IMG/VR virus record: IMGVR_UViG_3300006923_000127
Coordinates: 1 to 23,827 of that record
Direction: 5' to 3' (one strand)
DNA from: a virus
Length of the DNA stretch: 23,827 nucleotides
This document shows, piece after piece, positions 6,390 through 16,641 of this stretch (its first letter is position 1; every line of letters starts with the position of its first letter). A program made the position numbers and the translations under genes. The notes under the pieces were generated by a model. It searched no databases. It had not been told where the DNA came from and saw only the letters and a program-made list of their open reading frames with translations.

Positions 6390-7325
6390 ATGACTCAAGT
6401 AGTATCAAATGATGTTAGTGCAATCACACCTGAATTATGGTCAAGCATGGTACAGGTTCCTTTGTACAAGTCTCTTGTTGCTCTAGAGGTTGCAAACACT
6501 CGTTTAGAGAATGAATTGCGAAATGCGGATACAATCCACATGCCACGATTCGGTGACCTTTCAGCACAGACTTATACTCCAGGCACAACAATCACAGCCA
6601 CAGCTCAAGACTGGGCATACGACACACTTGTGGTTTCAGCTTACAAGCATGTTACATTCTATGTAGACAATGTTGAGCAACTACAAGCTAACGTAGACCA
6701 AGCACGAGAACTGGCTACAGAAGCCGCTTACAGACTACGTGACTCTATTGACACTCACGTATTCGCAAACATTACTGGAACAGATGGATTTACAGTCGCT
6801 GACGATGAAGACCTTCTAGGAGGAACAAACGCACGACCTATCTCAGCAGGTACAGCAAACATCATCAACTTGTTTGCAGGTGCTCGAAAAGTTCTACGTG
6901 AGAACAACGTAGAAGAAATGGGAGATTGGGTAACTGTTGTTACACCTAAGGTTGCAGCCGACATCGAAATCAAGGCAGCTAACGTTGGATTCAACGTAGC
7001 AGATGCCACTCTTCGTAATGGTTATGCTGGAGACTTCATGGGATTCCAAGTGTACATCTCAAACAACCTACCATCAGGTAGCGTTTCAGCGATTGCACCT
7101 CAAATTTCAGGAGGAGCAGTTTCAGCTACAACAGCCACATCTATGTACTTCGGACGAAAAGGAACTATTGATGTAGTTCTACAAAAAGCACCCGCTTTGG
7201 AAATTCGTCAGAAAGATGACATGATTGGTGCAAACTTCATTACCTACACAGTTTATGGTTCAAGTGTATTCACAAAGAACCGTTCACGAGGTTTGAACGT
7301 TGCAGTTGACGCAGCATTTGCCTAG
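6390..7325 (+). CDS. Major capsid protein (HK97 fold)
   Basis: The 311-aa protein follows the putative scaffold and has features typical of HK97-fold coat proteins of podovirus type. A short N-terminal arm contains TPELWSSMVQVPLYKSLVA. It is followed by a beta-strand E-loop-like region (TIHMPRFGDLSAQTYTPG) and then AYKHVTFYVDNVEQLQ, leading into the long spine helix (DQARELATEAAYRLRDSIDT). The A-domain includes AGARKVLRENNVEEMGDWVT and the segment VVTPKVAADIEI. Codon use is cleaner and richer in C-ending and CGA/CAA codons than in its neighbours, as expected for the most highly expressed gene. It forms the icosahedral shell. Two competing hairpins follow the stop. Confidence 0.88.
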   Translation: MTQVVSNDVSAITPELWSSMVQVPLYKSLVALEVANTRLENELRNADTIHMPRFGDLSAQTYTPGTTITATAQDWAYDTLVVSAYKHVTFYVDNVEQLQANVDQARELATEAAYRLRDSIDTHVFANITGTDGFTVADDEDLLGGTNARPISAGTANIINLFAGARKVLRENNVEEMGDWVTVVTPKVAADIEIKAANVGFNVADATLRNGYAGDFMGFQVYISNNLPSGSVSAIAPQISGGAVSATTATSMYFGRKGTIDVVLQKAPALEIRQKDDMIGANFITYTVYGSSVFTKNRSRGLNVAVDAAFA

Positions 7326-7344
7326 TCCTTTCGACTAAGTTGTT

Positions 7345-7388
7345 TATCGCCTATTCTACTCACTTTGGAGTAGGCGATACAAAGTGAG
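7345..7388 (+). promoter_or_regulatory. Overlapping, mutually exclusive inverted repeats after the capsid gene
   Basis: TATCGCCTA (7345-7353) pairs with TAGGCGATA (7371-7379), and CTCACTTTG (7359-7367) pairs with CAAAGTGAG (7380-7388). Each is a perfect 9-bp stem. The loop of each contains one arm of the other, so both cannot form as simple hairpins; a pseudoknot would be the alternative. A third stem, CTACTC/GAGTAG (7356-7361 and 7368-7373), can extend the first. There is no T-tract. A small separate hairpin (TAGTC/GACTA, 7323-7337) precedes it. It is likely a structural-mRNA stabiliser, partial terminator or switch that separates abundant capsid mRNA from the sugar cassette. Confidence 0.55.
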
Positions 7389-7422
7389 AGTAACTTAGAT
7401 ACTACTTATTAACTTAACGATT

Positions 7423-7638
7423 ATGAAAATATTTTACCGTTGGTTAGCAAAAAGCCGACTAATTAGAAGATACAAATATCTTATTGAAGTGAATAATATT
7501 CTAGAGGAATATATTACTCACAAGATTACTCAAGGTGGTAGTTCAGAATTTCTGACAAAAGCCCGACAAGACTTGGTAAACAAGCAAGCAGAGATTAAGG
7601 AGACTTCTGCTATGTTGGACTTCTTAAAAAAGGTGTAA
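7423..7638 (+). CDS. Small helical hypothetical protein (71 aa)
   Basis: The 71-aa protein starts MKIFYRWLAKSRLIRRYKYL. The basic N-terminal helix is followed by a helical region rich in Glu/Lys/Gln (QDLVNKQAEIKETSAMLDFL) that could form a coiled coil. It lies between the capsid hairpins and the glycosyltransferase gene, 34 nt downstream of the second stem. The stop codon abuts the TATAAT of the next promoter. No family is recognised. It might be a small capsid-associated or regulatory protein; there is no motif evidence for either. Confidence 0.6.
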   Translation: MKIFYRWLAKSRLIRRYKYLIEVNNILEEYITHKITQGGSSEFLTKARQDLVNKQAEIKETSAMLDFLKKV

Positions 7639-7644
7639 TATAAT
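7639..7644 (+). promoter_or_regulatory. -10 box for the sugar cassette
   Basis: TATAAT overlaps the end of the stop codon at 7636-7638 by adjacency and lies 7 nt before ATG 7652. A start site at the normal distance would give an essentially leaderless mRNA for the first glycosyltransferase. No clear -35 or TG extension is present. Confidence 0.4.
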
Positions 7645-14586: not shown

Positions 14587-15645
14587 ATGGCTACAAATTT
14601 CCCAACAGGATTACAGGACTTAGACCCAACTCGTGGTACAGATAACGAGAGGCTTGATAGTCCCAATCATGCAACACACCATGAAACAGAAGATGATACT
14701 ATTGAAGCCTTGCAAGCCAAGGTGGGTATTGATAGTTCCGCAGATACTACTTCCTTAGACTATAAATTGAAAGATTCTGGTTCTATAGACCCAGGACACA
14801 AGCACACACCATCCACATCACTAAACACCAGTGGTACTCCAGGGGCGGGTACTTTTTTAAGAGGAGATGATTACTGGTCTACAGCACTTATCACAGATGT
14901 TCAAATTTTCACTTCTGGTGGTACTTGGACTAAACCAGCAGATGCGGAAACTGTAACCCTTATTGCTATTGGAGGTGGTGGAGGTGGTGCTAGACCAACT
15001 AATGTTGGTAATACTACCTATGGTATAGGAGGAGGTGGTGGTGGCGGGGGAGGTCTTTCAATACTGACACTAAATGCTGATATTGCTGGTGCTACTGAGA
15101 CAGTAACCTTGGGTTCAGGTGGTAGTGGAGGGACTACAAATGGAGATGCTGGTGATGCTGGTGGCGACACATCATTCGGGTCTTTGGTCTATGCTCGTGG
15201 CGGAGGAGGCGGAAGTGGTAGAACTGCTGGGGCTGGAGGGGTTGGTCTATATACTGGTGGAACTGGTGGAACTGGTGCGACTATGGGTGCGGATGATGCT
15301 GTTGCTGCAGTAGACACATTGTTTGCCCCTGCGGGTGGTGGAGCAGGAACTTCACAAAATAATCATAATAATGCAGATGGTGCAGATATATCTGGCCCTA
15401 TAGAGAGGGCGGGTGGAACATCCAGTGGGGATGCAGGTGAGAGTTCAGCTGCCAATGATGCCAATGGTGGTGGTGGAGGTGCTGGAGGAACTGGGGGTGT
15501 TGGAGGAGCACCAGATGGCTCTGCAGGAGGTGCTGGAGGTAACTATGGAGCTGGCGGGGGAGGAGGAGGAGGTTGTGGTACGGACGGTACTTCGGGCAAC
15601 GGTGGAGATGGAGCCGATGGTATCTTGATTGTAATTACAAACTAA
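14587..15645 (+). CDS. Glycine-rich tail fibre/adhesin 1
   Basis: The 352-aa protein has a phage-fibre N-terminus: the segment LDSPNHATHHETEDDTIEAL leads into QAKVGIDSSADTTSLDYKL, a common attachment module in tail fibres. The linker GHKHTPSTSLNTSGTPGAGT follows. From residue about 120 a beta strand pair (GTWTKPADAETVTLIAIGGG) opens a long glycine-rich domain, with runs of up to nine Gly, that ends DGADGILIVITN. Polyglycine-II sandwich packing is known for the receptor-binding gp38 adhesins of T-even phages such as S16, so this domain is a candidate receptor-binding tip. Its C-terminal part resembles that of the next gene. Confidence 0.75.
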   Translation: MATNFPTGLQDLDPTRGTDNERLDSPNHATHHETEDDTIEALQAKVGIDSSADTTSLDYKLKDSGSIDPGHKHTPSTSLNTSGTPGAGTFLRGDDYWSTALITDVQIFTSGGTWTKPADAETVTLIAIGGGGGGARPTNVGNTTYGIGGGGGGGGGLSILTLNADIAGATETVTLGSGGSGGTTNGDAGDAGGDTSFGSLVYARGGGGGSGRTAGAGGVGLYTGGTGGTGATMGADDAVAAVDTLFAPAGGGAGTSQNNHNNADGADISGPIERAGGTSSGDAGESSAANDANGGGGGAGGTGGVGGAPDGSAGGAGGNYGAGGGGGGGCGTDGTSGNGGDGADGILIVITN

Positions 15646-15654
15646 GAATTAAAC

Positions 15655-16641
15655 ATGGCTTACGATTCAAATAAAAAAGGAACAGAATTAGACGCATTAA
15701 CATCCTTAGATGATGGAGATGTTATTATCGTCTCTGACTTAGATGATTCTGGTAGAGCAAAGAAGATTACAGCAGGAAATTTAGCTGATGACCTATTTGC
15801 TGACACAACAGCACTAGACTCTGCTGGTATTTATCGTACTGGTAGCACAGATGTGGCTGTGGCAGATGGTGGTACTAATATATCTTCTTATACAAAAGGG
15901 GACATCTTAGTAGCAACTGGAGCTACTACTCTAGCTAAGTTAGGGGTTGGTGCCAACGACACGGTGCTGAAAGCCGATAGTGGAGAATCTTCTGGAGTAA
16001 AATGGGCAGGAGCAGCTAATACTCCAACGGTTGTTGTTTATGAAGTTGGAGATTCCCCTGCCACATGGACAAAGGCGGATTACTCAGGTTTGGTCTATGT
16101 AGAAACAGAGGTAGTTGGTGGAGGGGGTGGTGGTGGTGGTAATAACGATGATAACGCTGGTTCTGGTGGGGGTGGTGCTGGTGGTTATTCTAAAAAAACT
16201 ATCGCCGTGGCCGACCTGGGAGCAACTGAGACTGTTACTGTTGGGGCGGCTGGAACTGCTGGGATTAGTAGTGGTGGTGCTGGTGGAGTGGGAGGGACAT
16301 CATCTTTTGGTTCCCACGCATCTGCCACTGGTGGTGCTGGTGGAGCAGAAGCGGGGGACGGAGGTGTTGGTGGGATTGGCTCTAGCGGAGATTTGAATAT
16401 TGATGGTGGAGACGGCGGGCCTACTGAGTATGGTTATTCTGGCTCTGAAACAATCGGTCGTGGTGGAGAGGGAGGTAAATCACAACTAAGTGGACAAACA
16501 AGAAGAAATTTGTCTGGGGCTGGTGAGACGGGTTCTTCTTATGGTGGTGGTGGTTCTGGAGCAAAAGCCCCTAACGGTTCTGGTGCAACGGCTGGAGGTG
16601 CTGGGGCAGCAGGAGTGGTTGTCGTAACTATGTATACATAA
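15655..16641 (+). CDS. Glycine-rich tail fibre/adhesin 2
   Basis: The 328-aa protein begins with MAYDSNKKGTELDALTSLDD and the D-I-I-V-S-D repeat typical of phage fibre N-termini. GGTNISSYTKGDILVATGAT then ANDTVLKADSGE follow, the classic fibre-shaft repeat. From residue about 153 comes a glycine-rich domain (EVVGGGGGGGGNNDDNAGSG) with several GGAGG repeats, ending GAAGVVVVTMYT. It parallels the preceding gene in having a non-homologous N-terminal part and a shared style of glycine-rich C-terminus, suggesting duplication of the tip domain or exchange of adhesin modules. The stop overlaps the start of the next gene by one base. Confidence 0.75.
   Translation: MAYDSNKKGTELDALTSLDDGDVIIVSDLDDSGRAKKITAGNLADDLFADTTALDSAGIYRTGSTDVAVADGGTNISSYTKGDILVATGATTLAKLGVGANDTVLKADSGESSGVKWAGAANTPTVVVYEVGDSPATWTKADYSGLVYVETEVVGGGGGGGGNNDDNAGSGGGGAGGYSKKTIAVADLGATETVTVGAAGTAGISSGGAGGVGGTSSFGSHASATGGAGGAEAGDGGVGGIGSSGDLNIDGGDGGPTEYGYSGSETIGRGGEGGKSQLSGQTRRNLSGAGETGSSYGGGGSGAKAPNGSGATAGGAGAAGVVVVTMYT

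Follow-up and report, generated by a model that had tools for sequence, protein, structure and literature searches.

An interlocked, covarying RNA element between the major capsid gene and the next gene in a clade of uncultured tailed phages

What separates the major capsid protein gene of an uncultured phage from the gene that follows it, and might this short gap control how the two are expressed? The question is raised by a 23,827-nucleotide stretch of viral DNA (IMG/VR record IMGVR_UViG_3300006923_000127, positions 1 to 23,827; hereafter, the window), a tailed-phage fragment in which the order is terminase, SU10-like portal, major capsid protein, RNA element, a 71-aa open reading frame (ORF), and a sugar cassette. 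The initial annotation of the window had read a capsid gene with a sugar cassette downstream, and profile matches showed this reading to be correct; in addition to the match listed in Table 1, the capsid protein matched Pfam Phage_capsid_2 at 7.7e-5, under the cut-off of that family. The product of the 71-aa ORF, which has a basic N-terminus and a helical, coiled-coil-like character as judged by eye, matched no confident family in a Pfam search. Further downstream, long Gly-rich repeats (GGTGGTGGAGG-like) run across two adjacent ORFs at 14959-16388, whose sequences make tail-fibre or spike-type proteins likely.

Directly after the capsid gene, two perfect and interlocked 9-bp stems had been reported at 7345-7388, and an inverted-repeat search recovered them exactly as described. 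They belong to an RNA element of ~64 nt (window 7335-7398) with three helices: a stem that surrounds the rest (P1), a hairpin (P2), and a helix (P3) that pairs the P2 loop with the segment connecting P2 to P1 (Table 1). The 9 bp noted earlier for the hairpin are the perfect lower part of P2 (7345-7353/7371-7379), and P3 is 100% paired. A third inverted repeat, CTAAGTT/AACTTAG at 7335-7341/7392-7398, was absent from the initial annotation and encloses both stems; when GU pairs are counted, it extends to the 10 bp of P1. The element begins 9 nt after the capsid stop. The 7326-7425 region was the top-scoring site for the P1-P2xP3 topology on either strand of the window, with a score of -44.4, whereas 2000 dinucleotide shuffles averaged -10.4 and reached -29.4 at best, 0 of them being as good. 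Exact interlocked 9+9 stems occurred once in the window and in 0 of 200 whole-window shuffles, while ordinary RNA folding of the region gave z = -3.6.

Table 1. Positions of the RNA element and neighboring features in the window
Feature	Position	Strand	Basis or remark
Major capsid protein gene, 311 aa	6390..7325	+	PHROG 267 major head protein E=2.3e-37
Major capsid protein gene stop TAG	7323-7325	+	ORF call
P1 5' strand, enclosing stem, CTAAGTTGTT	7335..7344	+	topology finder; inverted repeat; inner 5 pairs canonical in 47/47 relatives
P2 5' strand, TATCGCCTATTC	7345..7356	+	inverted repeat; covariation
P3 5' strand, within P2 loop, CTCACTTTG	7359..7367	+	inverted repeat; covariation
P2 3' strand, GAGTAGGCGATA	7368..7379	+	inverted repeat
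P3 3' strand, CAAAGTGAG, abuts P2 with zero linker	7380..7388	+	inverted repeat; link 0-2 nt in nearly all relatives
P1 3' strand, AGTAACTTAG	7389..7398	+	topology finder; inverted repeat; relatives' pairing
Small downstream ORF, 71 aa	7423..7638	+	follows element in nearly all relatives
Promoter-like site TGGACT-17-TATAAT	7616..7644	+	10/12 consensus match only; surroundings, outside element

To place the element among relatives, capsid searches yielded 55 loci and further IMG/VR loci were then added; together these supplied 67 distinct regions downstream of the capsid stop. In 47 distinct relatives, the P1-P2xP3 layout separates the capsid gene from the ORF that follows, and it proved specific to this locus, with few matches away from the 3' side of the capsid gene in ~1.2 Mb searched on both strands. 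One relative sits in a bacterial MAG (L187) and one distant relative in a Halovenus MAG (L188). Three loci (L047, L050, and L098) and deeper lineages carry a plain strong hairpin instead, and therefore interlocking is not essential for the role of the site, whatever that may be. On a capsid tree, loci with the plain hairpin cluster, and at least 4 changes are required to account for that state and 6-8 for the pseudoknot state, which indicates that the element was gained or lost several times. Among cultured phages with distant capsid homologues (L060-L064), we found plain hairpins or gaps and no interlocked element. One of these, Microcystis phage MaAM05 (L060), has a similar order of small ORF, ~205-aa protein, capsid, 143-nt gap, and 73-aa ORF, and the gap likewise held no interlocked element.

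Several individual loci depart from the common layout. An interlocked chain of three helices (p a p' b a' b') follows the capsid stop in L012, L017, L019, L040, and L110; by eye, p' has two alternative partners, p and an extended b' strand, which makes this a strand-sharing variant. At L037:3624-3694, the element lies inside an extended capsid frame that continues to a later stop, reflecting either a natural extension or a sequencing error. An HNH endonuclease ORF flanked by two elements of different subtypes is located downstream of the capsid gene and ahead of the small ORF at L138:3469-3945, and in L054 an HNH ORF follows the element, with its start codon inside P1. Homing genes seem to use the capsid/small-ORF spot.

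The initial annotation had proposed looking for covarying changes in both stems, and both P2 and P3 were found to covary and to be kept, rather than only one of them. Primary sequence is largely replaced among the relatives while P1, P2, and P3 all stay paired, at near 100% canonical across the 47 elements with the P1-P2xP3 layout that make up our structural table, compared with 39-70% when partner strands were shuffled; most stem positions show 4-6 pair types. Because the topology finder selects structures by their pairing, three controls were needed: (i) the same finder on shuffled sequence, (ii) minimum free energy (MFE) folds without knowledge of P3, and (iii) a MAFFT alignment with shuffled and slid partners. 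In the MFE test, 23 folds had a 3' bulge, and in 18 of these pairing of the bulge with its own loop beat that of shuffled bulges (p<0.02). In the MAFFT alignment of nine sequences (A4), 96% of cells pair, and the covariation score was 0.616, compared with 0.228 for shuffled and <=0.20 for slid partners; both sides have changed in 7 of 11 P2 pairs and 6 of 7 P3 pairs. We relied on A4 and the structural table since another alignment (A3) placed P3 poorly, owing to differing arm lengths. Between L046 and L112, whose capsids are 84% identical, four double compensations were found in P2 and P3 and zero broken pairs there.

The strand on which selection acts can also be read from the pairs. At isolated non-Watson-Crick positions, GU outnumbers AC by 62 to 3, and the + strand is the more stable in 43 elements and the - strand in 2, which together indicate selection on the coding-strand RNA. 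The same two observations make it barely credible that the element is a DNA-level site for packaging, recombination, or replication, a reading that inverted repeats at a fixed genome position might otherwise favor. The element is therefore under selection as coding-strand RNA, with strong covariation in all three helices.

The geometry of the element bears on whether it is, as had been proposed, either an RNA switch or an H-type pseudoknot. In nearly every member, the 3' end of P2 is only 0-2 nt away from the 3' strand of P3; since in most members P1 also borders P2 directly on the 5' side, nearly all bases are helical. With so short a link, full P2 and full P3 are mutually exclusive, and a coarse A-form phosphate model found the two together infeasible in 47 of 47 elements. 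In this coarse model, a standard H-type pseudoknot becomes possible once 1-6 pairs of P2 (median 4), for the most part those at the bottom, are opened, while a complete simultaneous H-type pseudoknot and a side-by-side packing of P3 along P2 were both excluded. The covariation of P3 supports pairing of the loop with an outside strand, as in H-type pseudoknots, but a full-length H-type fold fails because both helices cannot be complete together; two exclusive folds that are both under selection, as in a bistable switch, are indicated by the coarse geometry and the covariation. The earlier wording was thus a fair description of the locus, but its two terms are not alternatives, since opening about four P2 pairs allows the pseudoknot: as modelled, "switch" and "pseudoknot" would be two states of one strained element. 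In state A, P1 and P2 would form a hairpin from which the 3' strand of P3 bulges, and state C would be an H-type pseudoknot of P1, upper P2, and P3 with ~3-5 P2 pairs melted. By approximate energies, state C is favored over state A in 46 of 47 elements at a pseudoknot initiation cost of +9.6 kcal/mol and in 33 of 47 at +15, although pseudoknot energies are crude and state A bears loop penalties that are absent from state C. We prefer a two-state element to a single static fold because the bottom P2 pairs, which are melted in the pseudoknot, still covary.

Several familiar roles for a structured RNA at this position fit the element poorly. A transcription terminator or attenuator would be in line with the ordinary hairpin, in some cases with a U-tract, that distant relatives have after the capsid gene. 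However, a GC-rich hairpin running directly into a U-tract, as in intrinsic terminators, was not found: no U-tract follows P2 or P1 in the window, the relatives inspected by eye look the same, and a terminator scan of the window gave no + strand site here, leaving this reading improbable. Two exclusive folds are typical of riboswitches and could suggest a ligand-binding riboswitch or a self-cleaving ribozyme, but conserved unpaired core nucleotides are missing; neither loops nor junctions are constant in length or sequence, the single invariant unpaired nucleotide is an A in the canonical subset, and there is no Rfam match, which makes such an RNA very unlikely. A pseudoknot soon after a stop codon also recalls a stimulator of frameshifting or of readthrough of the capsid stop. 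Recoding stimulators require a fixed spacing to the recoding site, whereas the distance from the stop to the element is anything but a constant short spacer (0-56 nt), which argues against this function, and in the window the frame beyond the stop closes after ~14 codons; we regard it as scarcely plausible.

The spacing around the element bears on its probable function. Among relatives, the capsid stop lies a median of 9 nt before P1, with the range just given, and the next ATG a median of 3 nt after the end of P1 (range -9 to +71), 24 of 46 loci falling within -9 to +3, that is, with the ATG inside P1 or no more than 3 nt from it. Shine-Dalgarno pairing is little or none (weaker than -3 kcal/mol) at 19 of 21 gene starts in the window, and structure at the start site should consequently weigh heavily. 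These short distances, together with the scarce Shine-Dalgarno pairing, suggest that the element is a translational barrier or coupling device for the downstream cistron, a reading to which we assign a probability of roughly 45%. The element would enclose the translation start of the downstream gene in structure, given that roughly half of the loci have the ATG within P1 or beside it, and a ribosome ending the capsid gene at this distance from P1 would be placed to melt it. The net effect would be that capsid output is high while the downstream gene is expressed at a low level coupled to it; shielding of the capsid mRNA from exonucleases is a possible additional role. Against the barrier reading, the spacing varies widely to both the capsid stop and the ATG, and burial of the start codon does not apply directly in the window, where 24 nt separate P1 from the ATG that follows. 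Sequestration of a Shine-Dalgarno sequence was considered, as the 3' strand of P3 often contains GAGG or GGAG, and was rejected: many members are without it, and the window phage scarcely uses such sites.

It had also been suggested that the stems set the ratio of capsid mRNA to sugar-cassette mRNA. For the sugar cassette specifically, this found no support, as the element is tied to the capsid/small-ORF boundary and the cassette has its own promoter-like site directly before its start (Table 1). In that sigma-70-like match, and in another just after the element in L024, the -10 box is ~10 nt or less from the next ATG, which suggests near-leaderless transcripts.

The main rival to the barrier or coupling reading is that the element protects or processes mRNA, either by shielding the 3' end of the capsid message from exonucleases or as an RNase III-type site that cuts it from the downstream mRNA. 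Relatives with plain strong stems lacking U-tracts at the same place are consistent with this, in that a generic barrier may suffice; so is the ~20-bp stem with a 3' bulge that P1 and P2 form together, and so is the L024 promoter, a consensus-like one (11/12) directly after the element. On its own, however, such a role leaves the conservation of P3 by covariation unexplained, and the number of promoter-like sites that follow the element shows no significant excess (8 vs 4.5 plus or minus 2.8), so we consider it possible but rather unlikely. More improbable than a terminator is a trans-acting or self-pairing RNA, in which the loop of P2 in one molecule would bind the bulged strand of P3 in a second to yield dimers or rings, in the manner of the intermolecular loops of phi29 prohead RNA. 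With P2 complete, the loop and the bulge are free, complementary, and unable to pair fully in cis, and the element is located in the head-gene region; yet loop size ranges from 7 to 37 nt, the element is always embedded between two ORFs, and cis pairing becomes possible once ~4 pairs open.

Comparison with known RNAs places the element among partial likenesses. No Rfam family was reached at gathering score, and a low-threshold scan returned chance-level matches only. The rpsO operator of E. coli (ribosomal protein S15), an mRNA region near a start codon, reportedly alternates between hairpin and pseudoknot to control translation, much as modelled here; there, protein S15 picks the state, whereas in our element the interlocked stems are linked by 0-2 nt and no conserved protein-binding sequence was seen. 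Dianthovirus-type exonuclease-resistant RNAs of plant viruses are said to combine a stem with a loop-to-3'-strand pseudoknot in competing conformations, as the element does, but they belong to eukaryotic RNA viruses and Xrn1, their 3' strand is arranged otherwise, and the likeness is one of structure alone. Among phages, the gene 32 mRNA pseudoknot of T4-like phages is regulatory as well, but it lies in the 5' leader of its own gene and serves autoregulation by gp32. The prohead RNA of phi29 is a small RNA of the head region whose sequence changes while pairing is kept, also a feature of the element; it is a separate transcript that acts in the packaging motor, with loops that pair between molecules. 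The L17 downstream element is a structured RNA after a highly expressed bacterial gene, a ribosomal protein gene of Lactobacillales and Listeria (PMC2864571). Both elements follow a gene, but ours follows a phage capsid gene and has no Rfam match. We found no description of the element in the open-access literature, the scope of our search, with subscription literature outside it. From these comparisons, we would class it as a new family of RNA elements, with membership in the rpsO type or the exonuclease-resistant RNAs putative.

Taken from sequence, our results point to a hitherto undescribed RNA control element at the junction of the capsid gene with the gene that follows it. It is conceivable, though we consider it doubtful, that it represents a phage mRNA element of a new class, which would exchange between a hairpin and a strained pseudoknot as ribosomes leave the capsid gene, its two helices being mutually exclusive by topology alone (a 0-2 nt linker and no shared nucleotides), and would control the downstream cistron without protein or ligand. 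In any case, a widespread and strongly supported RNA structure without an Rfam match marks the place where the capsid gene gives way to its downstream neighbor in a clade of uncultured phages. Its ~50 sequence-diverse versions are a natural test set for the workings of a topologically frustrated RNA, and for the means by which phages that lack a terminator behind the capsid gene might keep capsid output apart from that of the remaining late operon.
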